From Pirellulaceae bacterium (GTDB taxonomy: Bacteria > Planctomycetota > Planctomycetia > Pirellulales > Pirellulaceae), in NCBI GenBank assembly GCA_020852965.1, contig JADYZV010000024.1, forward strand, positions 1-64,000: 64,000 bases of DNA, in the 5' to 3' direction. Shown in pieces: positions 22,519 to 38,627 of this stretch (positions are counted from its first letter, which is position 1; each line of letters opens with the position of its first letter). The notes below the pieces were generated by a model that made no database searches, had not been told where the DNA came from, and saw only the letters and a program-made list of their open reading frames with translations. The position numbers and the translations under genes were made by a program.

Positions 22519-22534
22519 TGGCACGCCCGTTGCA
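22519..22534 (+). promoter_or_regulatory. Sigma-54 promoter of the Hsp20 operon
   Basis: TGGCACGCCCGTTGCA matches the -24/-12 consensus TGGCAC-N5-TTGC(A/T) fully. It ends 84 bp upstream of the first Hsp20 ATG. It shares an ACGAT prefix and the downstream CTGCCAATTTG stretch with the promoter at 35046. Confidence 0.85.
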
Positions 22535-22617
22535 TTTAGTCGCAATCGGCAGCAAAAAACTGCCAATTTGGAAACGACACACTTTGATAGTTTTCTTTGC
22601 AATTGGAGGATCGAACG

Positions 22618-23052
22618 ATGTTAAACACTCGCTGGCAACCTGTTGCGGAATTGAATCGACTCCGAAGCGAATTGGAGCGTGCGTTTGGGCAAGCTGGACA
22701 GGGGCGTACTGCTGCCAGTGCAAGGGTCTTCCCGCCGCTCAACCTATGGGAAAGCGACGACAACCTGTACGTGGAAGCCGAGTTGCCTGGGTTTGAGATG
22801 GAGGAATTGGAAATCTACGTCACCGGAGGCAACCAACTTTCGATCGCGGGTGAGCGTAAGCCACCGGAATTCGAAGGCGGTGCATGGCATCGACAAGAAC
22901 GAGCGTTCGGAAAGTTCCGCCGCACATTTGACCTGCCCTGCGATGTCAACGCCGACGCTGTTTCCGCAACCTTCGCACACGGCATCCTGACGTTGACGAT
23001 GCCCAAAGTCGAAGAAGTGAAGCCACGACGAATCGAAGTCAAGGCTAGTTGA
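22618..23052 (+). CDS. hsp20: Small heat shock protein Hsp20, first of three
   Basis: ATG 22618 follows a GGAGGA. The product has 144 residues with an alpha-crystallin domain from NLWESDDNLYVEAELPGFEM to the beta strand HGILTLTMPK, and ends with KPRRIEVKAS. It is an ATP-independent holdase that keeps unfolding proteins soluble. The PGFEMEELEIYVTGGNQLSI motif is typical. It is the first gene of a three-gene Hsp20 operon behind a sigma-54-type promoter, where a sigma-32-like or HrcA control would be more usual. Confidence 0.93.
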   Translation: MLNTRWQPVAELNRLRSELERAFGQAGQGRTAASARVFPPLNLWESDDNLYVEAELPGFEMEELEIYVTGGNQLSIAGERKPPEFEGGAWHRQERAFGKFRRTFDLPCDVNADAVSATFAHGILTLTMPKVEEVKPRRIEVKAS

Positions 23053-23109
23053 TCGCAGTGTTGCGATGGACATTCCAATAACAATTCAAAAGCTAAAGGA
23101 GACAAAGCG

Positions 23110-23502
23110 ATGAGTACGACGATGACCGGTAACGAAAAACAATCGGGCGCGAACTCTAGCCCGGAACAGACCTATCAGTCGACCTATGTGCCTCGTTTTG
23201 ACATTTGGGAAGGTGAAGACGAGTTGCTGCTCTTGGGCGACCTGCCCGGTGTCAAAGTCGACGACTTGGATATTCGATTTGAAAATCGTGAGTTGACGAT
23301 TCACGGCAATGTTTCATCCCGTTACGAAGGCGAAATGTTGTTTGGCGAATACGGCATCGGCGATTTCCACCGGAGCTTTACGATCGGCGATGCGATCGAC
23401 GCCGAAAAGATTTCTGCGGAAATGTGCAACGGAGTTTTGAAACTGCATCTGCCAAAGTCCGAGAAGGTCAAGCCACGTCGGATCGAGGTGAAGGCGAGCT
23501 GA
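23110..23502 (+). CDS. hsp20: Small heat shock protein Hsp20, second of three
   Basis: This 130-residue Hsp20 has a 35-residue disordered N-terminus and an alpha-crystallin domain (YVPRFDIWEGEDELLLLGDL, then FGEYGIGDFHRSFTIGD, then GVLKLHLPKSE). The C-terminal KPRRIEVKAS is identical to that of the first copy, indicating a duplication. A strong AAAGGAGA stands before the ATG. It lies 57 bp after copy 1 in the same transcript. Different N-terminal arms suggest that mixed oligomers form. Confidence 0.93.
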   Translation: MSTTMTGNEKQSGANSSPEQTYQSTYVPRFDIWEGEDELLLLGDLPGVKVDDLDIRFENRELTIHGNVSSRYEGEMLFGEYGIGDFHRSFTIGDAIDAEKISAEMCNGVLKLHLPKSEKVKPRRIEVKAS

Positions 23503-23596
23503 TCGTAGACAATCCAAAGTCGTTGCGCCCTCCGTGGGCGCGATGCGATGTTAGCAGATCGCGGGCAGCGACATTTCACGAAAGGAGGAAAATCAA

Positions 23597-24079
23597 ATGA
23601 TTGACAAACTGATTCCTTGGAAAAAGAAGAATGGTGAATTGAAAGTCCGCCACGATGACTATCCGATTTCGCGTCTCCGCGACGAATTCGATCAAGTCTG
23701 GGACCGATTTTGGGATGACTGGAACATGGGCGGATTGCGCAAGTGGAGCGATGGTTCGCGAATGCTGGGTACGCACGTCGATTTCGAGGACCAAGACACC
23801 GAGTACGTCTTGCGTGCCGAGCTGCCTGGTTTTGAGCCGGGTGACTTCGATGTCAAGCTCAGCGGCAACGTGCTGACGCTTAAAGCAGAGCACAACGAAG
23901 AAGGTACCGAGAAGAACGGAAGTTACCGTCGCTACGGCAGCTTTTACGAATCGTTTACTTTGCCACAAGGTGTGCAAGCGGACAACATCGATGCGAAGTA
24001 TCACCGCGGCGTGCTGGAGGTTCACTTGCCAAAGAGCGAAGAGTGCAAGGGCAAACGCATTGAAGTCAAGTCGACGTGA
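23597..24079 (+). CDS. hsp20: Small heat shock protein Hsp20, third of three
   Basis: This 160-residue Hsp20 is preceded by AAAGGAGG. The N-terminus has a DQVWDRFWDDWNMGGL segment, as in the longer class of bacterial Hsp20. The crystallin domain runs from HVDFEDQDTEYVLRAELPGF to YHRGVLEVHLPKSEE. It ends in CKGKRIEVKST, so it is more diverged than copies 1 and 2. The terminator-like hairpin at 24149 follows. Confidence 0.93.
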   Translation: MIDKLIPWKKKNGELKVRHDDYPISRLRDEFDQVWDRFWDDWNMGGLRKWSDGSRMLGTHVDFEDQDTEYVLRAELPGFEPGDFDVKLSGNVLTLKAEHNEEGTEKNGSYRRYGSFYESFTLPQGVQADNIDAKYHRGVLEVHLPKSEECKGKRIEVKST

Positions 24080-24148
24080 GGGTAGGTGGCCCCAAACCTA
24101 GGGGACGTCACCGTATGTCGATCTCTGCTGGTGTGTTGACCGAAGAAT

Positions 24149-24171
24149 GACCCTGCGGTTCTCGCAGGGTC
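24149..24171 (+). terminator. Hairpin downstream of the Hsp20 operon
   Basis: GACCCTGCG-GTTCT-CGCAGGGTC is a perfect 9-bp stem 70 bp after the last Hsp20 stop. The following GTGGTATTT is only weakly T-rich, so termination is likely but not certain. Confidence 0.7.
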
Positions 24172-24276
24172 GTGGTATTTAGCGGTAGCAGTTAGGAATT
24201 GATCCGACACGAACCTCAGGAATGAGGTAAGTGCATGCCGGTTGCTAGCAGTCGTGAAGGAACGGCAGCGATTCCT

Positions 24277-24307
24277 AGACCCCCATACCACTAGACCCCC
24301 ATACCAA
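24277..24307. repeat. Tandem duplication at the 3' end of the chemotaxis-kinase gene
   Basis: TAGACCCCCATACCA occurs twice in direct succession. The left copy repeats the last codons and stop (GMGV-stop on the minus strand) of the gene ending at 24291. The duplication leaves a spare copy of the gene's end after the true stop. Confidence 0.7.
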
Positions 24308-27300
24308 CCAGCGATGCGACCATCTCCATCAGCGGTACAGCATCGACAGGTTTGGGGAAGTATCCGTTACAGCCCACTTTGAGGCACGCTTCGCGTTCTC
24401 CTTCCATCGCGTCGGCGGTCAACGCGATGATGGGACATACGAAGCCTTGACGCCGCAGTTCCGCGACCGCTTCGCGACCGTTCATCACCGGCATCTGCAT
24501 GTCCATGATAATCAGCGCAAAGGGACTACCTTCCTCTCGCGCCGCGCATGCCGCGTCGACTGCTTGCCGTCCGTCTTCCGCCACGGTGACTTCCGCACCA
24601 CACTTCTCCAGAAAGTACTTCGTCACTCGCCAAATATCTCGGCGATCATCGGCCACCAACACGCGGGCTTCAATTCTCGGCAATTCTCTGGCGTTTGAGG
24701 TCTGCGAACTCCCACTTTGGTGGTCTTGTCCAGAAACCATCGAATTGCGTTGCATATCGCTGACCGGCAACGTCAAGCGAAATCGACTGCCTCTACCGAG
24801 TTCACTTTCGACTGAGATTTCGCCCCCCATCGCCTCGGCCAAGCGGCGACTGATACTCAGGCCCAAGCCCGTCCCACCAAATCGCCGTGCGGTTTCGCCC
24901 GATGCTTGCGTGAACGGTTGGAAAAGCTGGGCAACCTGGTCCTCGCTCATGCCAACGCCAGTGTCGGACACAGTGACATCCAGCGTCGCCAAACACTCTG
25001 CGGATGAGCTTGGTCCGTCTACATTCCGCCCACGGGGTGTGCAGCGACGATCGGACATTCCGACGCTGACCCGCACCTCGCCCTCATCCGTAAACTTGAG
25101 CGCATTGCCGATCAAGTTCACCAAGATTTGACGCACGCGAACTTCGTCCGCTGTAATTTTGGCGGGAACTTTGGAAGTCCACTCAAAATGCAGTGGCACG
25201 CCTTCCGCCGTGGCTCGCACATTCATCAATGTGCGTACATCTTCGATCACTTCACGAACGTCGATCAACTCCTCGTCGATCGTCATTTTCCCCGCTTCGA
25301 TCTTCGACAGGTCTAAAATATCGTTCAGCAACCTCAACAGATAGTTACCATTGCGTTGTATCGTTCCGGCGAGCTCTCGAACCGTCGAATCATGGGACTC
25401 TGAATTGAGCATCTCTGCGAACCCCAACACGGCCGTCATTGGCGAACGCAGCTCATGGCTCATGTTCGCCAAGAACGAACTCTTGGCTTCGCTGGCCAGT
25501 TGAGCCTCTTGGTGCGCCCGCTCAAGCTGCTGTTGCGTCTTACGCAATTCCGTGATATCGCGACTGATCTCGACCACATAAGGTTCGTCGCCGTTCATCC
25601 TCAGCAACTGATACCGGGTCGAAACTGTGATTTGGTCTCCTGCCTTCGTTCGCTGTTCCAACACCCCGACCCATTGGTCTGTCTCCAATAGCGACTGGCG
25701 AATCTCGCGCCACGGAATCGGATGGCGGGTGCCAAGCAGTTCGTGGACCTTCTCTCCGATCGCTTCCTCGGATGAGTAGCCATACAGGCGAATCGAACCC
25801 CGATTCCAGCTCGCAATAGTGCCTTCCAAGTCGGAAAAGATGATCGAGTCGTGCGAGGCGTCAAACACCTTGCCCATCTGTTCCAACCGTGTTCGCATTC
25901 GCAAGCGATCACTGATATCTTGGAACGTCACCACCGCGCCTTCACGTCGTCCGCCACGGAACAGGGGACGACTCCAATACTCCACTGGAATGCTCGTCCC
26001 GTCGGCACGCCAAAACACTTCATCGTCCACGTGCATGGTCGTTTCGCCGCGCGACGCATGATAAATGCGACAATCCTCCATTGGGTAGCACGACTTGTCG
26101 GAATGCGAATGATGAACCAGGTCGTGCATGTTTTTGCCCAGCACTTGGTTCTCATTCTCGTATCCGAGCAATCGCAGCGCGGCGTCATTACAAAACGTGC
26201 AATTGCCATCCATATCGACGCCGTAGATCCCTTCGGTTGTCGTATCCAAGATCGTCTGCATCCATTCCGCGTTCTCGCGAACCTCCGCCTCGGCCTGTTT
26301 CAACGTGGCGACATCGATCAGCGTTAAAACGATTCCCGATACACCATCTTCGCGCCGGTACGGCACAATTCGCAGCAGGAAGGGCGTGCCATCGCGATCG
26401 GTCACGTTGGCTTCCTTCTGATTCTCCGAAGCTCGAACTTCACGCAAATCGTCAATCAGCGAGGTGCCTTGAATGTTTCTCGCAAAGCCTTCAATCGAGC
26501 GCCCGATATCATGCTCCACCAGATGAAACACGCGCGCGATCTCGGGAGTGAACCGGCGAATGTAGAGTTCGTCGTCCAAGAAGATCACACCGACGCGCGT
26601 TGTCGCTAGCAGGTTGTCCATGTCCTCGTTGGCCTGCGCTAATTCCTCGACACGTCGCTGGTGTTCGGCATTGACCGTGTAAAGCTCTTCGTTGACGCTG
26701 TGCAATTCCTCGTTCGTACTTTGCAGTTCTTCGTTCGACGCAACGAGTTCTTCGTTCGACGCTTGCAGCTCTTCGTTGGCCGTTTCCATCTCTTCCACAG
26801 TCGCCTGCAAATTCTCTTGCGTGTACCGCAACTCCGATTCCAACGCCACAACTCGCTTTTCCGTCAAGTCATTGACATCGACCAATGTTTCGCTCACGGC
26901 CCGGGGCGCTGCTGGCTCCGCCGTTTCAAACTTGATGTGCAAGTTTGTAGTAAGAGCTGATGGGTCGCGCAATGGTTCGACCGTCAGGCGCATGTACTCC
27001 TCGTGACCGTCACGTGGAATGCGAACCCCCGTGTACCGCACGACGTCCTGCTTTCGCAATGCATGCTGGAGTGCTCCTGCCACCGGTGTCTTCAAGTGTT
27101 CGTCGATGATCTCCAGCAAATTGTTCGATGGTCGCCCGGAACGCAGACGAAGGTACTGATGGGCATCACCGAAAATGTGTAGGATTTCGAAATGCTCGCT
27201 CACCAGCACGCTAGGCGGCATGTTCCGCTGAAGTAGTTGGTCATAGATCGACAATAACGATTGATCGACTCGCGAGGATGTGCCTGCGGGCGATGGCGAG

Positions 27301-28814
27301 GCACGCAACAGGGTTCGCGCGGGCGACTCCAGTGGCAACCGTGTTTCGATCGGCAGCCTGACGTCGCGCCGCTTCGTGTAAACTCGCCAGCGCTTATCGA
27401 CGACCTCGAACTCGTCACTGATTTCGCCGGGTGTCTCGCTCGGCCCTAACAGCAAAGTGCCCCCCATCCGCAGCGCAAAGTGGAACATCGACAGCGCTTT
27501 CTTCTGAGCGCGTGGCTGCAGGTAGATGAGCAGGTTACGACACGAAACCAAGTCCATCTGAGTGAATGGGGCATCGCGGATGACGTTGTGCGGTGCAAAT
27601 ACTATGTATCGCCGCAAGTCGCGAGTGACGTGGTAACCGTCACGTTGCTTGCGAAAGTATTTTGCACGGCGTTGTTGCGACATTTCGCTGAGTGAATCTT
27701 CAGCATAGATGCCGTTTGCCGCCGTGTGCAGCGAAATATGGTGCGCATCGGTGGCAAAGATTTTCACTTCAACCTGCGACTGCAGGCGCTGCTTTTCCTC
27801 GTCCAGTAGAATTGCCAACGAATAGGCCTCCTCGCCCGACGCGCAACCTGCCACCCAAACACGGATTGGCCGCTGGTTGCCCGCTTGCGCGAACAATTTT
27901 GGAATCACACTCTTTTCCAGAATCTCGAAGGCTGGTGGATCGCGAAAGAATTTGGTCACGCCGATTAGCAGATCCTTGTACAGATCGTTTAGCTCGGCAG
28001 AATCGACTTCTAGTTGAGTGATGTAGCCATCCAGCGAGTCAATTTTCTTTAACTCGATCCGCCGCTGAATACGCCGCCCCACCGTACTCGCTTTGTAGTG
28101 CGAGAAGTCCAGTCCGTGTTGTTGGTTCAGCAGTTGAAAGACGCGATCCATGCCGCCCGCACGCGAAGCGAATTGTTCTTGCTTGACGATTTGCTCTCGG
28201 CTAAGCCCTTTGCGAACGTACCGTGTCAGTGTCTCCGCAATTGCGGTCGGTGACAGCACAAGATCGACCGCGCCGGTCGACTGGGCATTCATCGGCATCC
28301 CCTCGAACTTTGCCGTTTCGTCCTGCGCGATCACCAGCCCACCCGCGTCATGGATACTTCGAATTCCGCGAGACCCATCGCTGCCCGTTCCGGACAAGAC
28401 GACACCCACCGCTCGCGAACCGACATCGCTGCCGAGTGATCGGAAGAACTGGTCGATCGGGTGCGCGAACGCGCGTTCTTCGTCGGCGTCACTGAGCAAC
28501 AGCTTGCCTTGGTCGATCACCATTTCCGTGCGTGGCGGGATCAGATAGATCGAGTTTGGTTCGACTCGCATTTCATGTTCGACACGGTGAATCGCCATCC
28601 GCGTGTGCCGCGCAAGCAGCTCCTCCATGTGGCTCTTGAAGTCTGGCGAAAGATGTTGGACGACGACAAACGCCATGCCGGTATCGGGCGGCATCGCGTC
28701 AAAGAATTCTTCGAGCGGCTCCAACCCACCGGCTGAAGCGCCAAGCCCAACGATATGAAAGTTCGGGCGTTCCATGCCACTTCCCTGTGAGTCCATCGCC
28801 CGAGACTGTTCCAT
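24291..28814 (-). CDS. CheB-CheR-PAS-histidine kinase-receiver fusion protein
   Basis: The 1507-residue signalling protein starts with a CheB methylesterase domain ([27 protein letters not shown]), then a CheR methyltransferase domain ([43 protein letters not shown]). A long coiled coil follows with repeated xNEEL heptads near residues 660-720, then three PAS domains. Next come HisKA ([15 protein letters not shown]), a GHKL ATPase ([23 protein letters not shown]) and a C-terminal receiver ([14 protein letters not shown]). Because the kinase and both chemotaxis enzymes are in one chain, it may couple methylation-type adaptation to phosphorelay. It stands alone; the Hsp20 operon converges on it. 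No output regulator is adjacent, so phosphate may pass to a distant partner. Confidence 0.92.
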
Positions 28815-29141
28815 CTAATTCAATTTAACCCCTCTGTAAAATCGTCGTCGCACGCTAGGCGGCGTTAGCTCATTTCGTACATCCCTACGGAGTGTGCGGC
28901 GACGGTAGGGGCTAAATTATAGCGGAAGGTAGCGAAGAGCGCAACCTAGTGACCGAGTGCCAATTTGTCGTCGCTCGTTTCGTATCCATCCCGTGAGCGC
29001 GCAGGGTTCACCCACTGAGTGTACGGCTGCGGCGACGTTCACCGCTCGACTAGCCGAAGGGCGTTAGCCCCAACTCCCGTTCTGATGTGAACGGGAATCG
29101 AGGCTAATGCGCAAACGGCTCATGTACGTGTTTCTCGCTTA
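28815..29141. other. Gene-free gap, 327 bp, with a terminator-like hairpin
   Basis: It separates two minus-strand genes. At 29061-29110 an outer GCGTTAGCC/GGCTAATGC stem (one mismatch) encloses a perfect TCCCGTTC/GAACGGGA stem (29075-29096). This would fit a terminator for the PDZ gene. Similar GCGTTAGCC phrases occur at 28863. I see no ORF or clear promoter for the fusion kinase. Confidence 0.6.
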
Positions 29142-30047
29142 CTAGAAACTCAAGTCGGGCCAATTGAACAGCTCGCGTTGCCAGGGCATCCAACTGGGAC
29201 CGGTGGGTATTTCGAATTTGGGGAACTTGAACATACTTTCGCCTCGATCGTCGAGACTTCGCAACAACTGCCCCTTTTGAGACTCTGGCAATTCCTTGTC
29301 ATCTTTGATCGCGTCGCGAACCTCTTGACGCGTCCCAGTGTACTCGCGGTCGATCGAAGTACCCTCATCGTCCTGGTACTTTACCTTGGCGGTGTACTTG
29401 CCATCGGCTCCCTTCCTCACGCTCATCGACTCGAAGTGAGTCCATTCGGTGCCCTGCTCGCTCGCATCGTTTTTCTCGGTCAGGAAGTCGGGCTTGTAAG
29501 GAATCATCGGCACGTCAAATTGCTGGTTGAACCCAGGCCACTGATTGAACCCGGACCAGTTGCGTTCTATCGGAACTGTCTTGGGCTTTTCGCCGAGTTT
29601 GACTTTGACAGTGTGCAGCTTACCCGCTCGCACGTATTCCAATTCGACTTCCGATCCAGGCTTGTCATTGCGCACTCGCTTGACGAGCTGCTCTGGGGAA
29701 TACAAGTCTTGGTCGTCGTAGCGGACCAATACGTCGTGTTTGCGAAGCCCGGCCTTGGCAGCCGGTGAGTCGTCCGTCACATCGGCGACGAGCACTCCAC
29801 GACCCTCGCCAATTACCTCAGGCAGGTGGCTGGTCAGCACAGGTGGCAATGGCTCAACACCAATTCCAAGCGTGGCTTGCTTCGCGTGGCTGTCACCGCT
29901 CTCACTGGTAGCAGTATTGGAATCGGACTCACTCTCGGTTTGTGTTGCGTCTACTTTAGCCTTCGTATCATCGGCACGCGTGTCCGAAACCACAGAGATT
30001 CCTGCGGCGCAGATAGCCACGCAAAGTAGGAGTTTCAAGGCGTTCAT
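29142..30047 (-). CDS. Secreted PDZ-domain protein
   Basis: ATG 30047 is preceded by AAGGAG. Residues 1-25 are a signal peptide. A Ser/Thr-rich acidic linker (25-55) leads to one PDZ domain (LGIGVEPLPPVL, RGVLVADVTDDSPAAKAGLRKHDVL, GSEVELEYVRAGK) at about 58-150. The C-terminal half has no protease triad, so this is a PDZ protein without the HtrA protease part. The region GKYTAKVKYQDDEGTSIDRE is a conserved-looking beta segment. It may bind unfolded envelope proteins. A perfect sigma-54 element lies 60 bp upstream, linking it to the Hsp20 set. Confidence 0.85.
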   Translation of the reverse strand: MNALKLLLCVAICAAGISVVSDTRADDTKAKVDATQTESESDSNTATSESGDSHAKQATLGIGVEPLPPVLTSHLPEVIGEGRGVLVADVTDDSPAAKAGLRKHDVLVRYDDQDLYSPEQLVKRVRNDKPGSEVELEYVRAGKLHTVKVKLGEKPKTVPIERNWSGFNQWPGFNQQFDVPMIPYKPDFLTEKNDASEQGTEWTHFESMSVRKGADGKYTAKVKYQDDEGTSIDREYTGTRQEVRDAIKDDKELPESQKGQLLRSLDDRGESMFKFPKFEIPTGPSWMPWQRELFNWPDLSF

Positions 30048-30122: not shown

Positions 30123-30160
30123 AAAACGATTGCCGCATCACGCTCCGCATGCTGAAGATT

Positions 30161-30239
30161 GGGGTAAAGGGGTCAGGAGTCAATTGCCGGTACGGCCCTT
30201 CGGGTGCTTTGCACAATTGACTCCTGACCCCTTTACCCC
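30161..30239. repeat. Perfect 26-bp inverted repeat with a 27-nt loop
   Basis: Arms 30161-30186 and 30214-30239 are exact reverse complements. They begin GGGGTAAAGGGGTCAGGAGT and continue to CAATTG. The loop has its own GCCC-TTC-GGGT stem. This is a REP-like or MITE-like palindrome of the sort I remember as recurrent in planctomycetes. It lies between two divergent sigma-54 promoters (30107 and 30324). Confidence 0.9.
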
Positions 30240-30323: not shown

Positions 30324-30339
30324 TGGTGCGAGTCTTGCA
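30324..30339 (+). promoter_or_regulatory. Sigma-54 promoter of the sigma-region-4-like gene
   Basis: TGGTGC-GAGTC-TTGCA keeps the invariant GG and GC with 10 bp between them and deviates at two positions from the -24 box. It ends 74 bp upstream of the start at 30413. Confidence 0.65.
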
Positions 30340-30412: not shown

Positions 30413-30793
30413 ATGAAAACGCAATGGACATTTCATCAATGCGATCGAGCGAAGGAGCGCGCCCGATCTTACTGGTCCAAAAAGACGCAGCGGCTTGAGC
30501 GGTTGCTGGAATCGCCGCAACCACTGTCACTTGAAGAAATGGTTCCTGATGAGCGCTGGAATGATATCTGGGATACACTCGACGCCAATGAGAAACGCGA
30601 GCGGTTAGCAAAAATATTGCAAGGGCTGCCCAAACATCAGCGACAGGCGTTGATGCTAAAAGACGTCTACGGCTTCGAGACGTTTGAGCTGGTGAAAGCG
30701 CTGGGGCGCTGCAGCGAAGACATCGAATCCGACCTATCGGAAGCCCGTGAGAAAGTTCGAGTGGGCTTGGGTGCGGTGGAGTCAACCATCTAG
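30413..30793 (+). CDS. Small sigma-70-region-4-like protein with HPF-like N-terminal helix
   Basis: The 126-residue protein starts MKTQWTFHQCDRAKERARSY, resembling the first strand and helix (W..KK..RLE.LL) of planctomycete ribosome-hibernation (HPF/RaiA-like) proteins. Its second half, LPKHQRQALMLKDVYGFETF and ELVKALGRCSEDIESDLSEA, fits sigma-70 region 4. It shares this region with the larger protein cut by the right edge (63439). No full HPF domain or sigma region 2 is present, so it may be a shortened adaptor or anti-/co-sigma factor. A sigma-54-like promoter lies upstream; RBS GGAGGA. Its role in hibernation is inferred. Confidence 0.65.
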   Translation: MKTQWTFHQCDRAKERARSYWSKKTQRLERLLESPQPLSLEEMVPDERWNDIWDTLDANEKRERLAKILQGLPKHQRQALMLKDVYGFETFELVKALGRCSEDIESDLSEAREKVRVGLGAVESTI

Positions 30794-30872: not shown

Positions 30873-30888
30873 TGGTACGGAGATTGCT
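30873..30888 (+). promoter_or_regulatory. Sigma-54 promoter of the 30933 gene
   Basis: TGGTAC-GGAGA-TTGCT matches TGGCAC-N5-TTGCW with one change. It ends 45 bp upstream of ATG 30933. Confidence 0.65.
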
Positions 30889-30932: not shown

Positions 30933-31376
30933 ATGACTGCCCTCCAAAGCTTTTCGCCAGTTGCGACAACTTCCGCGTCAGTGCTGTTGCGAAGCCGGCC
31001 GCCCGCCAATAGCCACCCAATGCGTCGGCGAACTAGGGTACTGCCTCTGGATCAGCAAGGCATCCGGGCAGACTGGCTTACTCGCGGGATTGAGGAAGCC
31101 AACTGTGCACTCTTCCATGCCGCGCTATATCCAATCCTGCCGAAGCTCAAAGCCCGAATTCGGAGTTGGTTGAAGTCCCATAGTGCTGACCCGTCCATGG
31201 CTCGCGATCAACTGCTCATTGCGGACCTCGCGTTGGGGGTAATCGTGTTGGCTTTCGAGAAAGGCCGCCGTTGGAGACAGAATCAATCGGTTCTCGATTG
31301 GCTTGCTAGCTTTATCCCAGTCGTCTATGCCAAGAGTCAACCAGCCTATGCGGCTCACCAAATAGCGGCCCGCTAG
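30933..31376 (+). CDS. Unknown protein in the sigma-54 cluster
   Basis: ATG 30933 has GAGG upstream; 147 residues. The N-terminal ~35 residues are low-complexity and basic (RRRTRVLPLD). A helical core follows (WLTRGIEEANCALFHAALYP, ILPKLKARIRSWL, DLALGVIVLAFEKGRRWRQN). I recognise no family and there is no signal peptide or clear membrane helix. Position between the sigma-4-like gene and csrA, together with a sigma-54-type promoter, points to a stress or translation-related role. Confidence 0.6.
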   Translation: MTALQSFSPVATTSASVLLRSRPPANSHPMRRRTRVLPLDQQGIRADWLTRGIEEANCALFHAALYPILPKLKARIRSWLKSHSADPSMARDQLLIADLALGVIVLAFEKGRRWRQNQSVLDWLASFIPVVYAKSQPAYAAHQIAAR

Positions 31377-31400
31377 TTCAAACTGGCTTACGGACTGCGC

Positions 31401-31427
31401 GGTGCAAGTTGGCATGTAACTTGCACC
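31401..31427 (+). promoter_or_regulatory. Sigma-54 promoter of csrA inside a perfect inverted repeat
   Basis: TGGCAT-GTAAC-TTGCA (31410-31425) fits the -24/-12 pattern and ends 62 bp upstream of csrA. It is embedded in a 10-bp inverted repeat GGTGCAAGTT/AACTTGCACC (31401-31410 and 31418-31427), so a repressor dimer could block sigma-54 polymerase here. Confidence 0.75.
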
Positions 31428-31486
31428 AATTATTACGTATCGGCGACGCCGTTTTCGCTTCTGAAGTTTTTATGGAGAAGAATAAG

Positions 31487-31696
31487 ATGTTGGTGCTATC
31501 ACGGAAGGTTGGCGAACGAATCCACATTGGTGACGACGTAGTGGTCACTATTACGGCAATCAAAGGAAATCGTGTGCAATTGGGAATCGACGCCTCCCAC
31601 GACGTTTCGATCTTGCGCGGGGAACTGCTTGAATTTGCTTCGCAAGAAGCTGAGCGTTTGGAGTGTATCGCACCGCAAGAGAAGCAAGTAGCGTAG
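31487..31696 (+). CDS. csrA: Carbon storage regulator CsrA
   Basis: ATG 31487 (MLVLSRKVGERIHIGDDVVV) with GGAGAAG upstream; 69 residues, the normal CsrA length. The family pattern LVLSRKxGExIxIGDDVxVxI is complete, including the RNA-contacting R at the end of the first strand and the later GIDASHDVSILRGEL segment. CsrA binds GGA-containing leaders and changes mRNA translation and stability. The longer frame starting at 31409 is not needed. Its placement in a sigma-54 cluster suggests post-transcriptional switching during stress. Confidence 0.95.
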   Translation: MLVLSRKVGERIHIGDDVVVTITAIKGNRVQLGIDASHDVSILRGELLEFASQEAERLECIAPQEKQVA

Positions 31697-31855
31697 GACA
31701 GTTTGGCATCCGCCGTACGCCATCGTGACGCTCAAAGGACAAGTTGGCGTCCAGGCTCGACTAGCTGCATAGGCACGGGAGCGGTAATTGGGAGTTAGCC
31801 TTTGTTGCTGGGAAGAGTGTAAAGAATCGCAGCAGGTGCTTGGAGGCCCCCCGCT

Positions 31856-34800
31856 TTAGGAGCGTGAGGCGACACTACGGAATGCCTTGAGTGCTTTGAC
31901 AAACTGAGTAACGAGCAGCTCGAGGTGTTTAACGGTCGCCTCCGCGTTATCGAAGTTACTTTGCTTGCCCATCAGCTCCAATGAGTAGGACAACTCGTGG
32001 GCTTCGTCGTGGCTATATGCGCCAACGAGGCTCTTGAGCCGATGGGCTGCGATCACGAGCGAGTCGGCATCGGACGACTCAATGGCTTGTCGCATGTTGC
32101 TTATGAGTTGCGGTGCATCGTGGATGACAAAGCCGATATGCTCGATCAGCAAATCGGTCTCGCCATTCATTCGTCGCAGAGCTTCGGAAATATCGAATGG
32201 TTTCGCGTCGGTGTTGTGTTGGGTCGATAGATCGGTAGCGTTTGGAGGTGCAGATGGTCCCGAAGTGATCCGCTCGACCATCGCGATCAACTCGCTGGCG
32301 TGGATCGGTTTGGCTAGGTACGAATCCATTCCGGCTGCCAAGCATTTTTCGCGGTCACCTGTCAGTGCGTGTGCAGTCAGTGCAACGATAGGAACGTGTG
32401 AACCGTTTTCTCGTTCATTGCGACGAATTTGCTTGGTGGCGACAAAACCGTCACTCTTGGGCATCTGCACATCCATCAGCACCACGTCGTACGATCTCTG
32501 CGAGACCGCCGCAACGGCTTCATCGCCATCGGTCGCCGAATCGCAGTCGTGACCACGTCGCTGCAGAATCCTCATCGCGAGTTTGCGGTTGGGTTCGTGG
32601 TCGTCGACGACCAGCACTGTGAGTTTGCGTAATGGTTCGGCGGATCTGATCGGACCGCCATCGGCGATTGTCTTGTCAGCCACGTATTGCTTGGAGCGAT
32701 TTCCCGACAAACTAGCGATAATCGCTTCCAGTAGCGACGAAGCCGAAACCGGCTTGACCAGGTATGTTTCGATGCCCAATTGCCGACAGCGAGCAGCGGA
32801 GTTGGGACGATCGGCAGAAGAAAGCATCATCACGGGGCCGCACTTCAATTCGGGTCGGCTCTTGATCCGCTCTGCAAGTTCAAACCCATCGACGCGCGGC
32901 ATCATGGCGTCGAGCAACACGAGGTCGATTGTCTCGCCCGCCAGCGAAAGTTCTTGCAGTATTTCCATTGCATCCTCGGCACAGTCGGTGAGAGTCGGCT
33001 CGATACCCCAGTGCCGCAGGATCTCATCGAGTATTCTTCGGTTGGTAGCGTTGTCGTCGACCACCAGCGCACGCTTCCCAGAAAGTTCCTCGGCGTCGAT
33101 GGCCAGCGGTGCGGAATCGGGCGGATTGGCGAGTCGCATTTGAATCGTGAAGTGGAACGTGCTGCCTTCGCCGAGACTGCTTTGTACCCAAATCTTGCCT
33201 TCCATCATGCGGATGAGTTCTGACGTGATCGTGAGCCCCAAGCCAGTACCGCCGAATCGCCGCGCCATTGACGAATCGACTTGCGTGAACGAATCAAAAA
33301 TCTGTTGCAATCGGTCTTTGGGTATGCCGATCCCCGTATCACGGACGGCGAAGTGCAAACAAATCTCATCGTCGGTCGACCATTGTTCTTCTACCTCAAT
33401 GACGACTTCGCCCTGTTCGGTGAACTTGATCGCATTGCCAATCAAGTTGTAAAGCACTTGCCGAATCCGCAGCGGGTCGCCTTCCATATATTGTGGAATG
33501 TCCATTGGCATGTGTACGGCCAACTCCAACCCCTTCTGGTGAGCCTTCACCGCAAGTGCTCTGAGTGTCTCGCGAACGAGTTCGACCAGGTTGAACCTGA
33601 TGCTCTCTATCTCCAACTTGCCGGCTTCTATCTTTGACACGTCCAACACATCGTTGAGTAAGCCTAACAGGGTATCGGCCGAAGATTGAACGCAGTTCAA
33701 GTAATCGCGCTGTTCTGCTGAGAGCTCGGTTGTTAGCGCGAGTTCGGTCATGCCGACAACGGCGTTGAGCGGCGTGCGAATTTCGTGGCTCATGTTGGCC
33801 AAAAACTCACTCTTGGCGCGATTGCTCGTTTCAGCGGACTGCTTGGCCGCCCGCAGTGCTTCTTCGGTTTGATGACGAGCCGTGATGTCGGTCTCGATAC
33901 CGATCCACCGAACAAGCTTTCCATATTCATCGTGAATTGGTATGAGTCGCAATTCGACCCAAATCGTTCGTCCGTTGCGATGGTATTGCAACAAGTCGCA
34001 GGTCATCTCGTGGCCGTTGCGCAGTGCTTGTTCGCAATTGCGAACGGCTTTCGGATCGGTGCTTGGGCCGAACAGGAGTTGGTCGAATCTGCGACCGATG
34101 ACCTCGGCTTCTGCGTAACCTGTAAACTTGCCGAATGCAGGATTTGCCCACTGGATTCCTCCGTAGGCGTCCATGACAAGAATCCCGATGGGCGATTGAT
34201 TGGCGACAAGTGAAAGTGTTTCTAGGTCGTCGCGATCGGCGGCGGCTTGACGGGCTGCTGCTTCGGAAGGGCCGTGAAGTCGGGCAATTCCAAATTCATG
34301 GCCCGGCGGCTGTCGCCCACGCTGGGCGATGACGATCGCGTCTTCGAGTGATGGAGCTTGCAGCAACTCAGCCCAGTTCGCCAGGTGATCTTCACTCAGC
34401 GGAATTAAAGGTGAAACGGAAACGCCGAGTAGGATCGAAGGCGGCGACTCAATGATTTCGCATTGCAGGGTAGCAGCCAAGTCTTGGATTTTTGAGAGGC
34501 GCTCCGATGTCAGCAGCTCCGATGTCACAATTCGCGTGACTTCCGGCACGCTAGCCACAACTTGAACCTCTGCGATGTCGTTCTCGTTGTGAGCGCGCAG
34601 CGCAAAACGGACGAAAGCGGATACGGATGCGTCGTGAAATACCTTAGCCGCTTCTGCGGTTGCGCGTGAAAGGCCTAATCGATGTTTTGAGCCGAGTCCG
34701 ACGAGAGCTGCAAAGATGCGGCAACGACGAGACAGTTGTGAGAAGTGCGAGCTTTGAGTGAGCGGAAACTCGGCAATGATTCTACGAGTGTCGCCGCACA

Positions 34801-34867
34801 CTCCGTGAGCGTCACTCACCCGATCTTCGGACCTGGGGAGCCTTATTTTGAATGGCTGATCTACCAT
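31856..34867 (-). CDS. Hybrid sensor histidine kinase, PAS-HisKA-ATPase-two receivers-HPt
   Basis: The chosen start is ATG 34867 ([11 protein letters not shown]), with AAGG nine bases upstream; a frame opens 11 codons earlier. Of 1003 residues, the first ~190 form an unknown sensor part with an RsbT-like look ([20 protein letters not shown]). Then come one PAS domain ([20 protein letters not shown]), HisKA ([20 protein letters not shown]), GHKL ATPase ([16 protein letters not shown]), two receivers (VLLDAMMP and VLMDVQMP) and an HPt domain ([15 protein letters not shown]). It is soluble by appearance. It is divergent from the NtrC-type regulator at 35139, its likely partner through the HPt. 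Confidence 0.92.
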
Positions 34868-34950
34868 GAATTCATCCCTTGGTCGGACGGCCTGAAGCAT
34901 ATCGGCCCAGTGAATGATTGATGAAGGTAATAGAAAGCAAAGTCACGCGT

Positions 34951-34966
34951 AGCAACCATCATGCCA
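34951..34966 (-). promoter_or_regulatory. Sigma-54 promoter of the hybrid kinase
   Basis: The minus strand reads TGGCAT-GATGG-TTGCT, matching the consensus except the sixth base. It lies 84 bp upstream of the kinase start and back to back with the promoter at 35046. Confidence 0.75.
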
Positions 34967-35045
34967 TGGATCGTCTTCAGCCACTATGCTAGCGGTTTCG
35001 ATCCGTGAGGCGCTCGACTGCCCCAGACACGCCTGCAGCGACGAT

Positions 35046-35061
35046 TGGCACGCTCGTTGCA
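35046..35061 (+). promoter_or_regulatory. Sigma-54 promoter of the NtrC-type regulator
   Basis: TGGCACGCTCGTTGCA is a full consensus match, 78 bp upstream of ATG 35139. The surrounding ACGAT prefix and the CTGCCAATTTG some 25 bp downstream also occur at the Hsp20 promoter (22519), which shows a common origin or a common extra binding site. Confidence 0.85.
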
Positions 35062-35138
35062 CGCCAGTTTGTCGCATCCAGCACTGCCAATTTGTCACTA
35101 TACAACACTTATCGGGAGGAACGAATCGAGGTAGAGCC

Positions 35139-36776
35139 ATGTCACGTATCTTGGTAGTTGATGACGAACCCGCCGACCTGGGGCTCATTCGTCGAGCGCT
35201 TGAGAAACTTGACCACGAAGTGATCACGGCTGGCACCGTCAAGGACGCGCTGCAACTGGTCCGCAGTAAGCAGCCTGATGTCGCCGTGTTGGACGTGATG
35301 TTGCCCGACGGAAACGGTCTAGACATGCTAAATTCGATTCGGTCGATCGACGAGCGCCTACCTGCTATCTTTGTCACTTCAAGCCGCGAGAGCGCTACAG
35401 CAATCCAGGCCATGAAACTCGGCGCAATCGATTACCTCGTCAAACCGATCGGCATCGTTGAGCTAAGAAAGGTCGTTGCACGAGCGTTGGCAATTCGCGA
35501 GCTAACTAAGAAGCCAGTCGAGATGAACGCTGAATCGGGCGTTTCCAATACCGACTCGCACGCGATGATAGGTCGCTGCTCCGCCATGCAGGAGGTCTAC
35601 AAAGCAATCGGCATCGTCGCCAATCAAGACGTGACGGTTTTGATCCGTGGCGAAAGTGGCACGGGAAAAGAATTGGTCGCCCGCGCGCTCTATCAATTCA
35701 GTGACCGGGTCAAGGGACCGTTCCTAGCAGTGAACTGCGCTGCCATCCCGGAAGCACTACTGGAAAGTGAACTGTTCGGGCACGAGAAGGGATCGTTTAC
35801 CGGCGCGGATCGAAAACGCATTGGCAAGTTCGAGCAGGCGGCAGGCGGCACACTGTTTCTGGACGAGATCGGTGACATGTCACCAGTTCTGCAAAGCAAG
35901 TTGCTGCGAGTGCTGCAAGAAAAGCGATTCGAACGCGTTGGTGGGAACGAATCGCTCAAGGCCGATGCTCGTGTCATTGCGGCGACTCACTGCAATTTGG
36001 AAGCGATGGTTTCCGATGGGAAATTTCGATCCGACCTGTATTACCGCCTGAATGGATTTTCGATTCACCTACCGGCGCTTCGCGATCGAGGCAGTGATCT
36101 CGATTCGTTGGTCGAGCATTTCCGCCGTGTCGCCTGCACTGACCTTGGTAAGAATGTGCGACAAGTCGCCAGCGATGCGATGGAGCTGTTGCGATCGCAT
36201 TCTTGGCCCGGCAACATTCGCGAATTGCAGAATGTGGTAAGGCAAGCGATATTGAAGACCAAGGGGCCGGTACTGCTGGCCGAATTCCTGCCCGAGCTAT
36301 CACTCACTCGCTATTTAACCGAGAGGCCCAACGAGGCCAGCGTGCCGGAGTCCGCGGACCCATTGCGACCACAGTCGTCACGCAACGGCAGTCTCGATGA
36401 TCTCATTGCCAGTCGATTGGACGCCAACTCATCCCAGCTCTACGACGAAGTGATCGCGGAAGTAGAAGAGCGGATCGTCAAGGCGGTCATACAACGCGCT
36501 GACGGCGACGGAACCGAGGCGGCGCGTTTGCTGGGGATCAATCCTGCGATGCTACGTAGCCGAGCTGCGCTCGACTTGTTGAACCTCGAACTGGGGCGAA
36601 ATGCGAGTGTGATGTCTCCTCTGCTCCGACCAGGCATGACGATGGAGGAGATCGAACGGGAGGCGATCAAGCGAACGTTGGACCACACCGATGGCTGCCG
36701 AAAATCCGCTGCTGAATTGTTAGGAATCAGTGTCCGCACCATGCAGCGCCGAGTAAAGGAACTGGGCCTGAAATAG
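35139..36776 (+). CDS. NtrC-family sigma-54 response regulator with two Fis-type HTH motifs
   Basis: Start ATG 35139 (MSRILVVDDE); 545 residues. The receiver has phospho-acceptor D52 (VLDVMLPDGNG) and KP at ~103. The AAA+ domain has Walker A GESGTGKE near 171, a GSFTGA loop near 218 (normally GAFTGA) and FLDEIGDM. The C-terminus carries two Fis-like HTH units: TEAARLLGINPAMLRSR near 458 and KSAAELLGISVRTMQRR near 521. It should open sigma-54 promoters when phosphorylated. Divergence from the hybrid kinase and sigma-54 elements on both sides suggest autoregulation. The double HTH is unusual. Confidence 0.93.
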   Translation: MSRILVVDDEPADLGLIRRALEKLDHEVITAGTVKDALQLVRSKQPDVAVLDVMLPDGNGLDMLNSIRSIDERLPAIFVTSSRESATAIQAMKLGAIDYLVKPIGIVELRKVVARALAIRELTKKPVEMNAESGVSNTDSHAMIGRCSAMQEVYKAIGIVANQDVTVLIRGESGTGKELVARALYQFSDRVKGPFLAVNCAAIPEALLESELFGHEKGSFTGADRKRIGKFEQAAGGTLFLDEIGDMSPVLQSKLLRVLQEKRFERVGGNESLKADARVIAATHCNLEAMVSDGKFRSDLYYRLNGFSIHLPALRDRGSDLDSLVEHFRRVACTDLGKNVRQVASDAMELLRSHSWPGNIRELQNVVRQAILKTKGPVLLAEFLPELSLTRYLTERPNEASVPESADPLRPQSSRNGSLDDLIASRLDANSSQLYDEVIAEVEERIVKAVIQRADGDGTEAARLLGINPAMLRSRAALDLLNLELGRNASVMSPLLRPGMTMEEIEREAIKRTLDHTDGCRKSAAELLGISVRTMQRRVKELGLK

Positions 36777-37417
36777 CATTCTTCCTCGCCGCAATCGCCA
36801 CGCATTCCCCGAGAAATTATCAGTCGATTTGCCGATCGGTGCGAGGTCTAAAGCAGCTTTCATCGCCAGCTTGTCTGGCATGACACAAGCTCAAATGGCG
36901 TGGACTTGAGCCGTAGCGGAAGTCGTCAAGTCTTTTGGCCAATCCGCCTTGACGTGCCCCCCCCAACTCTTGCGAGTATCGGCTACGTGGGACTCCCCTG
37001 CCAGCTTGCCTGGCCGGTAGCAAAGTTTTTTAGTAGAACGCGTCGCCCACTTCGTGTCGTTTTCCCGCCCAATCGCCGCCGCTGGCGGCGATCGGGCGGG
37101 AATGCTCTGCGCCTGCGAGCGCGAGCTAATCACAAAACTCGTTCACCGAGCGAGGCAAGCTCGCCGGGGTCTTCATGTTACGGTGCCCGAAACGGTGGAA
37201 AAGTTCTTCTACCACGGTTTTGCTAAAGTACACGCCATTCGAGGCAAGCTCACGGGGGCCCAAAATGAAACGATGTGAGATACAACGAACCGCTTGCGGG
37301 AGGGTATCTTGCCGCATGGTTTAGGCATTCATGAATAATCCGAGATTCGCGGCAATTGCTCTCACAAAGCGGGTCAACCTGTCGCGACAAATTGGCAATC
37401 GTTGCCGCACGGTCTGC
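36777..37417. repeat. 640-bp gene-free region filled with short repeats and hairpins
   Basis: Visible structures: AGCTTGT/ACAAGCT (36868-36891); CGTCAAG/CTTGACG flanking about 36918-36955; CAACTCTTGCGAGTATCGGC near 36962, which recalls a phrase I associate with Rhodopirellula intergenic repeats; a 19-bp stem at 37062-37102 (one mismatch, three-base loop GCT); and a direct repeat CGAGGCAAGCTC at about 37150 and 37240. No convincing ORF lies here. It looks like an accumulation of dispersed repeat elements between the regulator and the bestrophin gene. Confidence 0.65.
37062..37102. terminator. Long GC-rich hairpin
   Basis: The arms 37062-37080 and 37084-37102 pair with a single mismatch around the loop GCT (core AATCGCCGCC/GGCGGCGATC). 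No T-tract follows on either strand, so it may be a repeat element rather than a true terminator of either convergent gene. Confidence 0.5.
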
Positions 37418-38467
37418 TCAATCGAGTATGAAACCAACAGGAATCGCGGGTTTGGGAAGGTCGCTCTCGCCAAGTTGTTCCAGGAGATTGATTTCGATTG
37501 TTTGACAGATTGCTCGCAACGGCAAACTGTTGGCATCGTGGTCGAACGGGTTTTCAATCTCGTCACCGATTGCATCGAGCCCAAAAAATGCGTGGGAAAC
37601 CAAAAAGACGACGATCGGCGTGAGATAGTGAACCGTATCAACCAAACCGAATGGCAACGCGAAGCAATAAAACGCGACCAGCCGATGAATCAACACGGCA
37701 TAGGGAAACGGAATCGGCGTGTTCTTGATCCTTTCGCAACCACCCATAATGTTTGACAGTTCAGCGAGCTGTCGGTCAATGGCGTGAACCGACATTGCAT
37801 CGAGCCACCCGTGTTGTTTCGCTTGTTGAACGTCGCGTCCTAGTGCCGTCATGATGGCAACAGGCCGATGTTTTGATGCGACAGTGGACTCAAATTCGTC
37901 TACATCAAGCATGTGCTGAAACTGCTCCGGATTATCTTCGTCGCGTAAGTGCAGGCGCAATGAATGCGCAAACGCGATGACGCGGCGAATAAATCGCTCG
38001 CGGAACTGCGTTATCTCGAATTGCTCGCGCTCCGAAATGTCTGGCAGTGATTCAGCTTGCCGAGCAAGCGTGCGGCAGGTGTTGACCAACGCTCCCCACA
38101 GTTTTCGACCTTCCCAAAAGCGATCGTAAGATGCGTTGTTGCGAAATCCCAGGAAAATGCCCAGCGCGACGCCTATCAGCGTGAAGGGTGCTGTCGTGAA
38201 CGTGTATTGATCCATGCGGTAGTGCAGGCTCAAAAGCGTAACCCCGATCGAAACAGCCGTGGCAGCAGTGATCCGCCGCCAAGTCTTCTCCAGGCTGCTA
38301 CCATGAAACGTGACCAGTAAACGCAACCACGGTTCATTCTTTCGTCGGACAATCATCAGAGTAGTCGCATGTCGAAAAGGTAGGAGTATCGAAGCTCCTC
38401 GCCGCATACTTCGTTGGCTGAAAATACACGAGAACTGTCTGCCGAGCGCGGCGAAAACATCAATCAC
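37418..38467 (-). CDS. Bestrophin-like (UPF0187) membrane protein
   Basis: The frame opens with GTG at 38467; a later ATG (MIVRRKNEPW, ~38356) is possible. The product is up to 349 residues. The bestrophin signature FTLIGVALGIFLGFRNNASYDRFWEGRKLWG near residue 90-120 is clear (the pore-lining helix is in that stretch), with further membrane segments near 60-80 and 240-275. It likely conducts chloride or other anions across the inner membrane. The GTG overlaps the stop of an upstream 31-33 codon ORF (TAGTG), so translation may be coupled. A perfect sigma-54 element is upstream. Confidence 0.88.
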   Translation of the reverse strand: MIDVFAALGRQFSCIFSQRSMRRGASILLPFRHATTLMIVRRKNEPWLRLLVTFHGSSLEKTWRRITAATAVSIGVTLLSLHYRMDQYTFTTAPFTLIGVALGIFLGFRNNASYDRFWEGRKLWGALVNTCRTLARQAESLPDISEREQFEITQFRERFIRRVIAFAHSLRLHLRDEDNPEQFQHMLDVDEFESTVASKHRPVAIMTALGRDVQQAKQHGWLDAMSVHAIDRQLAELSNIMGGCERIKNTPIPFPYAVLIHRLVAFYCFALPFGLVDTVHYLTPIVVFLVSHAFFGLDAIGDEIENPFDHDANSLPLRAICQTIEINLLEQLGESDLPKPAIPVGFILD

Positions 38468-38568
38468 TATCTAACGTCAGGCATCAACCGTGGTGAAGCG
38501 AGGTATTGCCAATGTCGGAAACAACGCCAGAACAGCCTTGGCCATCCCCCAAATGTAGTCATCATCAT
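38467..38568 (-). CDS. Putative leader peptide, 31-33 residues, coupled to the bestrophin gene
   Basis: AAAGGAGGT precedes three consecutive ATG codons (38568, 38565, 38562); spacing favours the third. The peptide reads (MM)MTTFGGWPRLFWRCFRH and ends SPRLMPDVR; it is rich in Trp, Phe and Arg. Its TAG stop shares the G with the GTG start of the bestrophin gene. A consensus sigma-54 promoter lies 44 bp upstream of the first ATG. This strong RBS and coupling suggest a regulated leader. No homologue is known to me. Confidence 0.55.
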   Translation of the reverse strand: MMMTTFGGWPRLFWRCFRHWQYLASPRLMPDVR

Positions 38569-38611
38569 CCACCTCCTTTCTTTTGACTAAAAGACATCGT
38601 TAGAAATGCAT

Positions 38612-38627
38612 TGCAACGCATGTGCCA
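38612..38627 (-). promoter_or_regulatory. Sigma-54 promoter of leader ORF and bestrophin gene
   Basis: The minus strand reads TGGCACATGCGTTGCA, matching TGGCAC-N5-TTGCA exactly. Nothing else on the minus strand lies between it and the leader start. Confidence 0.8.

Follow-up and report, generated by a model that had tools for sequence, protein, structure and literature searches.

What holds together the sigma-54 promoters that crowd into one short piece of planctomycete DNA, and which protein drives them? The DNA analysed here, called the window throughout, is a stretch of 64,000 nucleotides from a Pirellulaceae bacterium (contig JADYZV010000024.1, positions 1 to 64,000). Some 16 kb of it carry -24/-12 elements before genes for three Hsp20 proteins, a hybrid histidine kinase and an NtrC-type activator, and also before genes for a PDZ-domain protein, a sigma-70 region-4-like (sigma-4-like) protein, a 147-aa protein, CsrA and a bestrophin-like channel. 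A preliminary description had joined eight such elements into one compact circuit; the dense promoter cluster around an activator, a hybrid kinase and an Hsp20 operon that it reported is indeed present. On the evidence below, the window can with fair though not high probability be read as the hub from which a proteostasis (heat-shock) regulon dependent on sigma-54 is controlled. The promoters, an accompanying palindrome, the joint conservation of the two before chaperone genes and a conserved gene module were all computed directly, and the strongest result is that a DNA pattern sought without reference to genes returns heat-shock chaperones almost exclusively.

The features on which the argument turns are these (ranks are those of a promoter matrix described in the last section):

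22408..22420 (+): candidate activator palindrome TGACACTTTGGCA, one mismatch, 111 bp upstream of the hsp20 -24 element
22519..22534 (+): predicted sigma-54 -24/-12 promoter of the Hsp20 operon, TGGCACGCCCGTTGCA, exact match, rank 1
22561..22573 (+): candidate activator palindrome TGCCAATTTGGAA, one mismatch, in the leader at +42 from the -24 element
22618..23052 (+): hsp20-1, Pfam PF00011
23110..23502 (+): hsp20-2, Pfam PF00011
23597..24079 (+): hsp20-3, Pfam PF00011
31856..34900 (-): hybrid histidine kinase, PAS-HisKA-HATPase-REC-REC-Hpt by Pfam
34951..34966 (-): probable sigma-54 promoter of the kinase gene, rank 7, with a perfect palindrome 131 bp upstream
35046..35061 (+): predicted sigma-54 promoter of the activator gene, exact match, rank 2
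35085..35097 (no strand): candidate activator site, a perfect palindrome TGCCAATTTGTCA that lies both above the kinase promoter and within the activator leader (+39)
35139..36776 (+): NtrC-type sigma-54 activator with REC, AAA+ and two HTH_8 domains, assigned from Pfam, alignment and C-termini

A palindrome paired with the sigma-54 promoters of chaperone genes

In the window, the promoters of the Hsp20 operon, the kinase gene and the activator gene all have a palindrome, TGNCAWWWTGNCA, close by. It was combined with the promoter consensus into a composite pattern, TGCCAWWWTGNCA-N70-130-TGGCAYN5TTGCW, which was sought in 241 genomes of the family with no use of gene information (G000 denotes this genome and other G numbers the family genomes; L numbers are loci and C numbers contigs). 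The composite occurs at 80 places, in 59 of the 241 genomes and 33 of 68 genera, and the reversed control gave none; since the pattern covers only the first half TGCCA and gaps of 70-130, these counts are lower bounds. Sequence was fetched for 75 of the 80 places (77 records, in which L281 occurs twice and L166 is the same as L208), and each was classified by its best tblastn match within 1 kb downstream, the reference set consisting of chaperones and window proteins only. Chaperone genes follow 72 of the 75 places (dnaK 34, groEL 26, hsp20 11, groES 1), and 71 of these genes start within 370 bp, the dnaK of L308 lying at about 860 bp. Three places are unclassified: L228, P-II-like by eye; L313, at a contig end; and G013:C10:203749. 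Such conservation marks the palindrome as part of sigma-54 chaperone promoters.

The composite promoters, examined as a set of 74, share further features. A second inverted repeat, GYAAGT-N-ACTTRC, is found at two mismatches or fewer in 32 of them as against 4.9% of shuffles, with a 15-base spacer in 29 of the 32 and a position about 41-56 bp above the -24 element (L208-L317); none was seen by eye in the promoters of the window. Below the promoter, CTGYCA starts between +38 and +44 in 26 of the 74 (a raw count, without a control), and in groEL and hsp20 leaders CTGCCA or CTGTCA is near-fixed at about +41 from the -24 element, sometimes as the full palindrome. The controlling inverted repeat of chaperone expression (CIRCE) is absent from all 74, the best resemblance having 6 mismatches of 18; control by HrcA through CIRCE was rejected on this ground, no search having been made for an HrcA gene.

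In this genome the dnaK promoter (C76:35883) has the palindrome 91 bp above its -24 element, and groEL (C46:67666) has it 223 bp above. Sigma-54 sites also lie upstream of groES (C151), a dnaJ-type gene (C46:146405), a CsbD-like gene and a Clp ATPase gene (Clp_N and UVR domains, C98). With dnaK, groEL and these others elsewhere in the genome, the regulon is probably not compact, as it had been called.

The Hsp20 operon itself was compared across the family. Its three proteins score 66-75.4 bits against a Pfam cut-off of 20.8, and hsp20-1, the only one so scored, does not reach the NCBIfam equivalog cut-off of either IbpA or IbpB. Among the best 30 of 49 family matches, which came from 45 of 149 genomes, a sigma-54 site lies 100-196 bp upstream in 26 loci, the window's included; of the four without an accepted site, L188 and L200 are cut by a contig end, and L188 (G041) has a site by reading. 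Palindromes or half-sites at +41 to +43 recur in other hsp20 leaders. A search of positions 20000-42000 for Rfam RNA thermometers and riboswitches gave no match above the gathering score, and known leader RNAs were rejected accordingly.

The first two Hsp20 genes (22618-23502) share 83% and 87% identity with their counterparts in G055 (L362), which belongs to another genus. Among six other genomes of the same genus, hsp20-1 is matched only in G147 (66%) and G082 (40%). Because the closer Hsp20 genes lie in another genus and same-genus matches are sparse, horizontal transfer of these two genes is likely.

Within the window, the palindrome TGNCAAWTTGNCA is perfect at 35085 and has one mismatch at 22408, 22561, 28958 and 37385. 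These five occurrences compare with a shuffled mean of 1.4, a count reached in 2 of 100 shuffles, so that by number alone the excess is modest. In genomes that have the window's type of activator, TGNCAWWWTGNCA lies at one mismatch or fewer between -250 and +60 in 13 of 20 activator, kinase and Hsp20 promoters, whereas only 3 of a comparison set of 53 sigma-54 sites have it (Fisher P 3.5e-7), and among 6000 positions drawn at random 231 do. The 20 were hand-picked from sites already seen and exclude module promoters with no recognisable site, and the 53 omit chaperone and activator-module loci (L153, L163-L166, L169, L172, L173, L177, L003, L254, L261, L265 and L272). Of the omitted module loci with other genes, L172 has the palindrome and L163 has none.

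The activator, its kinase and the conserved module

The activator contains PF00072, PF00158 and, in two stretches, PF02954. Its AAA+ loop reads GSFTGA at the GAFTGA position, a variant also listed for a Desulfovibrio activator in the relevant part of PMC4641369. The first of its two helix-turn-helix (HTH) domains is degenerate and has lost the usual recognition segment, and the second is canonical and reads ISVRTMQRR. The protein is below the NCBIfam equivalog cut-offs for ntrC (480.4 versus 558.6) and ZraR (369.5 versus 760). Among 25 PF00158 matches this genome encodes 18 activators with a full AAA+ domain, and only the window's has the ISVRTMQRR segment, the nearest other being ISVRTLHYK in L248.

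A tandem-HTH activator of this kind is found in about 17 of the 241 family genomes, this one included: 15 near-full matches of the C-terminal 121 residues (among them G231, which has only a 150-aa open frame), together with G147 and G021, which have an insert. The distribution is, by these matches, patchy, because the ten relatives that were aligned all belong to other genera (53-73% identity, G037 being closest) and the sole same-genus relative is a 58% match in G147. Weak HTH matches in 230 of the 241 genomes make co-occurrence of activator and composite across the family uninformative. Single-HTH activators with a similar last HTH (ISVRTLQRK, ISLRTLQRK) are present in G063, G148, G182, G233 and G236, and in G063 the gene lies directly downstream of two hsp20 genes. 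A contig search with the activator alignment returned generic sigma-54 activators of many phyla at 35-49% identity and no named relatives of the module.

A divergent kinase gene adjoins the activator in 15 of the 17 genomes, and was not seen in G094, where the contig ends, or in G231; in the window's kinase the Hpt match, at 23.3 bits, is below its cut-off of 24.6. Hsp20 genes adjoin the activator in G037, G039, G089, G064, G205 and G211, and a PDZ homologue lies within 7 kb of it in G037, G205 and G211. Sigma-54 sites occur between activator and kinase in 7 of 14 regions by one pattern, and also in G205 and G211. In four relatives (G013, G106, G205 and G211) the activator promoter has one palindrome at -8, overlapping the -24 element, and a copy at +40/41, an arrangement that suggests autoregulation of the activator by occlusion; the window's activator promoter has the leader copy only.

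Sigma-54 itself is available: this genome has one PF04552 (rpoN) match (E 3.3e-59), and rpoN is present in 226 of the 241 genomes of the family; 159 of the 241 reach 90% completeness with no more than 5% contamination, and every one of these has it. The consensus TGGCACN5TTGCA has 14 exact matches in the 8,366,829 bases (199 contigs) of the genome, versus 2 for the reversed pattern, and 4 of the 14 fall in the 16-kb stretch (binomial P = 1.4e-8); the looser TGGCAYN5TTGCW has 43 (control 11), with 6 in the stretch. G037 is similar, 4 of its 6 exact matches lying within 16 kb around the orthologous activator.

As a separate observation, a perfect palindrome and a sigma-54 promoter at G013:C10:203749-203853 (L043 16750-16854) are aimed at the 3' end of the activator gene. 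No clear gene precedes that 3' end, and a small RNA is possible.

A proposed mechanism and its alternatives

In the mechanism that we favour, the hybrid kinase with its Hpt-like domain (31856-34900) would pass phosphate to the NtrC-type activator (35139-36776), whose C-terminal HTH would bind the palindrome TGNCA-WWW-TGNCA and open sigma-54 promoters. Its local targets would be the Hsp20 operon, the kinase and the activator itself, and dnaK and groEL elsewhere in the genome would be likely targets through the same palindrome. The paired palindromes at the activator promoter of four relatives, in the leader and over the -24 element, would fit autorepression or tight autoregulation. The conserved divergent neighbourhood points to the kinase as the activator's partner, and the nature of the targets suggests heat or misfolded protein as the signal. 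That the window's activator reads the palindrome is, judged from position and from the recognition segment, moderately probable; that it also drives dnaK and groEL in this genome is a more tentative proposal, on which the balance falls slightly to the side of doubt.

A number of observations weigh against this reading. The strict composite is missing from 182 of the 241 genomes (the pattern being limited to the first half TGCCA), and most of the 59 that have it lack the tandem-HTH activator. Seven of the 20 module promoters have no palindrome, including hsp20 in G039, G064, G211 and G147, and none lies at one mismatch or fewer near the PDZ, sigma-4-like, 147-aa, csrA and bestrophin promoters of the window. 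In 7 of the 14 activator upstream regions (G120, G094, G039, G089, G064, G099 and G147) there is no patterned sigma-54 site, near misses being visible by eye among them. Strong clustering of exact sites at the activator is confined to this genome and G037: elsewhere the proportions are 2 of 9 in G013, 1 of 5 in G106, 1 of 9 in G039, 1 of 7 in G089 and in G064, 0 of 8 in G094, 0 of 18 in G120 and 0 of 6 in G099, and for three of these genomes (G013, G106 and G094) the reversed pattern yields at least as many hits as the consensus. At the groES and dnaJ sites of this genome no palindrome was seen, and what the Clp gene has is a copy at -25 with one mismatch. Of 27 looser sites, 13 overlap an open frame of at least 150 aa on one strand, dnaK's included, and of the 10 exact matches elsewhere in the genome 3 fall within open frames 204-615 codons long, so that part of the genome-wide matches are not promoters. 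From the literature, no regulation of rpoH, rpoE or rpoN was observed on heating of Rhodopirellula baltica in the passages concerned (PMC2754498), and rpoN of Chlamydia is reported to be lowered by heat (PMC8762339); both sets of data are compatible with control through an activator, and neither excludes it.

The alternative that survives best accepts a sigma-54 chaperone regulon and assigns it to another NtrC-type protein of wider distribution. The activator of the window would then be a lineage-specific side branch whose control extends mainly to itself, its kinase and the neighbouring Hsp20 genes. Composites before dnaK, groEL and hsp20 in genera without the tandem-HTH activator speak for it: in those genera the palindrome must be read by a different activator, and such a protein might read it in this genome too. 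It is also favoured by the single-HTH activators of those genera, with a similar segment (ISVRTLQRK or ISVRTLSNK), and by 15 of the 26 accepted Hsp20 sites, which are in genomes where the tandem-HTH activator was not found. Because the palindrome occurs in genomes without that activator, it was rejected as a mark of this protein alone. However, no other activator of this genome has ISVRTMQRR (ISVRTLHYK of L248 is nearest), and the palindrome stands at the window activator's own promoter as well. On balance we consider this alternative unlikely, yet serious.

Less probable, and by a clear step, is that the palindrome is the site of an unrelated repressor or of a second chaperone regulator, with the activator binding elsewhere. 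Copies at +39 to +43 in the transcribed leader, and at -8 over the -24 element, are at positions typical of repression, and the further inverted repeat GYAAGT-N15-ACTTRC in 32 of the 74 composite promoters could accommodate a second regulator. But the composite palindromes lie 70-130 bp above the -24 element, by construction, with zero control hits at that spacing, and this is the usual enhancer distance. There is also precedent for activator sites below a promoter: FleQ of Pseudomonas aeruginosa reportedly has activator sites downstream of the sigma-54 binding site (Jyot 2002), a likeness in position to the leader copies here, although the FleQ regulon is flagellar.

Relation to known systems

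In the best-studied bacteria, sigma-32 or repressors such as HrcA govern heat shock, and a sigma-54 promoter with a distant activator site is more familiar from genes for nitrogen and flagella. That sigma-54 controls chaperones and csrA in planctomycetes has already been predicted in print. A 2025 survey of the Planctomycetia (PLoS One) predicts it for the GroEL, GroES, DnaK, DnaJ, GrpE, IbpA and CsrA groups, citing a 2004 study (Studholme and Dixon) for csrA in Pirellula sp. strain 1 (PMC12316311). The assertion that no regulon of this composition had been described was therefore too strong, chaperone and CsrA groups being predicted together there. The survey shares with the present results a sigma-54 enrichment at chaperone, CsrA and ZraR-like groups, but it deals in the enrichment of orthologous groups, its pertinent passages give no activator site, chaperone activator or gene module, and it remarks that activator specificities are lacking for some organisms (PMC12316311). 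The palindrome, its activator and the module were not found in the literature searched, which consisted of titles and the openings of abstracts, with few subscription journals, the 2004 paper lying outside it.

The nearest working analogue, to judge by likeness, is the HsfB-HsfA phosphorelay of Myxococcus xanthus, reportedly first described by Ueki and Inouye in 2002. Its target lonD encodes a Lon protease. A hybrid kinase there phosphorylates an NtrC-like regulator, which controls this heat-shock gene directly (PMC9109919). The target named is lonD, however, rather than Hsp20, DnaK or GroEL, and the passage describes no chaperone-wide element (PMC9109919). The likeness in the window consists of the gene pair and its linkage to hsp20 only.

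Chlamydia belongs to the same superphylum. Its hrcA-grpE-dnaK operon in Chlamydia trachomatis likewise has a sigma-54 promoter before chaperone genes, and there is an AtoS-AtoC pair; it differs in having tandem sigma-66 and sigma-54 promoters, repression by HrcA and an rpoN that falls on heating, as described in the relevant part of PMC8762339. Against the HrcA repression of Chlamydia stand the 74 composite promoters here, none with CIRCE. In Escherichia coli the small heat-shock gene ibpB is likewise reported as sigma-54-transcribed, but beside sigma-32 transcription of ibpAB, and the passage names no dedicated chaperone activator (PMC4370416).

Heating of R. baltica induced ClpB, GroEL, DnaJ, GrpE, Hsp20 and DnaK, from which a cascade of significantly different kind was inferred by the authors (PMC2754498). 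A conserved arrangement of enhancer and sigma-54 promoter before dnaK, groEL and hsp20 offers a concrete, testable answer to what that cascade might be, namely chaperone control that is ATP-driven and gated by an activator. We tentatively suggest that the family's main heat-shock response (DnaK, GroEL, GroES and Hsp20, and here perhaps also DnaJ and a Clp ATPase) may have been placed on sigma-54 and a palindromic enhancer with a phosphorelay-controlled activator, in replacement of sigma-32 or HrcA. The window's lineage may then have gained a second HTH after a decayed first, set the activator beside its kinase and Hsp20, and made it self-limiting through sites that straddle its own promoter. 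If true, a core stress response would be added to the tasks of sigma-54, and the search for the activator could start from a defined DNA site.

The eight predicted promoters and the neighbouring genes

The remaining genes of the proposed circuit, with their elements, are as follows:

29142..30047 (-): PDZ-domain protein, Pfam PF13180
30107..30122 (-): predicted sigma-54 promoter of the PDZ gene, exact match, rank 3
30324..30339 (+): weak sigma-54-like element before the sigma-4-like gene, at chance level
30413..30793 (+): sigma-70 region-4-like protein, PF08281 at 24.5 bits versus a cut-off of 25.7
30873..30888 (+): weak sigma-54-like element before the 147-aa protein gene, at chance level
30933..31376 (+): unknown 147-aa protein, without a match in Pfam and in NCBIfam
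31410..31425 (+): probable sigma-54 promoter of csrA, rank 8
31487..31696 (+): csrA, NCBIfam TIGR00202 at 69.2 bits versus a cut-off of 70.1
37418..38467 (-): bestrophin-like channel, Pfam PF25539, preceded by a 33-codon leader open reading frame
38612..38627 (-): predicted sigma-54 promoter of the leader/bestrophin pair, exact match, rank 4, with no palindrome nearby

All eight elements are present at the places and on the strands that the preliminary description gave. From the end of the element to the start codon the gaps are 83 bp (22519), 59 (30107), 73 (30324), 44 (30873), 61 (31410), 50 (34951), 77 (35046) and 43 (38612), so that the 44-84 bp originally quoted is right within one base, and the four matches to TGGCACN5TTGCA are exact at 22519, 30107, 35046 and 38612. 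Pfam supports the gene labels of the three Hsp20 proteins, the PDZ protein, the kinase, the activator and the bestrophin, and the sigma-4-like protein and csrA are just under their cut-offs.

The elements are not of equal strength. They were scored with a matrix for which other genomes supplied 90 training promoters (25 lying before hsp20, 65 taken from the composite search) and the core of which is partly circular, since most of the training promoters were picked by the same consensus. The top four in the window are 22519, 35046, 30107 and 38612, with scores reached in none of 30 simulated windows (first-order Markov). Ranks 5 and 6 go to sites outside the eight, at 50691 and 3800; then follow 34951 (rank 7) and 31410 (rank 8), at whose scores about 0.7 chance hits are expected per 64 kb. 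For 30873 and 30324 the corresponding figures are 3.6 and 5.0 per window, which is chance level, and it is their position alone that speaks for these two. Four of the promoters can thus be called secure, two (31410 and 34951) plausible and two (30324 and 30873) unproven, and a picture of eight equal promoters was rejected. The sigma-54 promoters of hsp20, the PDZ gene, the activator and the bestrophin pair are established from sequence rather than from RNA, and for the PDZ, csrA and bestrophin genes dependence on sigma-54 is likely.

That all eight promoters answer to the local activator, in a single circuit joining folding, translation control and two-component signalling, is quite improbable. 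The eight elements are correctly placed, within 16 kb and facing genes, and in G063 and G182 csrA homologues have Hsp20 or a similar activator in their neighbourhood. Against this, two elements are at chance level and five promoters are without the palindrome, which is confined to those of Hsp20, the kinase and the activator; no sigma-54 site precedes csrA in G063 or G182, and two of the genes have no usable orthologues. In 149 family genomes the sigma-4-like protein found, besides itself, four partial 30-35% matches inside longer open frames, and the 147-aa protein three partial matches of 23-32%, none worth aligning as an orthologue. The recurrence of the elements before orthologues is likewise uneven: it holds for Hsp20 (26 of 30) and for the activator-kinase pair (7 of 14, with G205 and G211), but a good site precedes the PDZ homologue in G037 and not in G205 or G211. 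The one-circuit proposal is accordingly unsupported.

That the elements are simply chance matches in a large genome is next to excluded: matches with two mismatches or fewer number 29 in the window versus a shuffled mean of 21, a slight excess only, and two of the eight score at chance, but the clustering (P 1.4e-8), the 30 simulated windows and conservation before Hsp20 in relatives refute a chance origin for 22519, 30107, 35046 and 38612, if not for 30324 and 30873.

Several minor observations concern the same stretch. Elsewhere in the genome an exact sigma-54 match precedes a second csrA-like gene, which was identified by eye. At 30161-30239, in the interval that separates the PDZ promoter from the sigma-4-like one, the 26-base string ggggtaaaggggtcaggagtcaattg occurs twice in opposite orientations and forms a perfect inverted repeat. 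A CheB-CheR-PAS-kinase-receiver protein (Pfam) is encoded at 24291-28814, and the one-mismatch palindrome at 28958-28970 lies 143 bp before its gene, without a sigma-54 site. The rank-6 element, at 3800-3815 (-), is sigma-54-like, and at 50691-50706 (-) a good sigma-54 site, TGGCACGACTATTGCG, lies 165 bp before an MgtC-like gene (mgtC family) at 50037-50525. The orthologous activator of G021 likewise has an mgtC homologue as its neighbour, and a perfect palindrome is found next to it.

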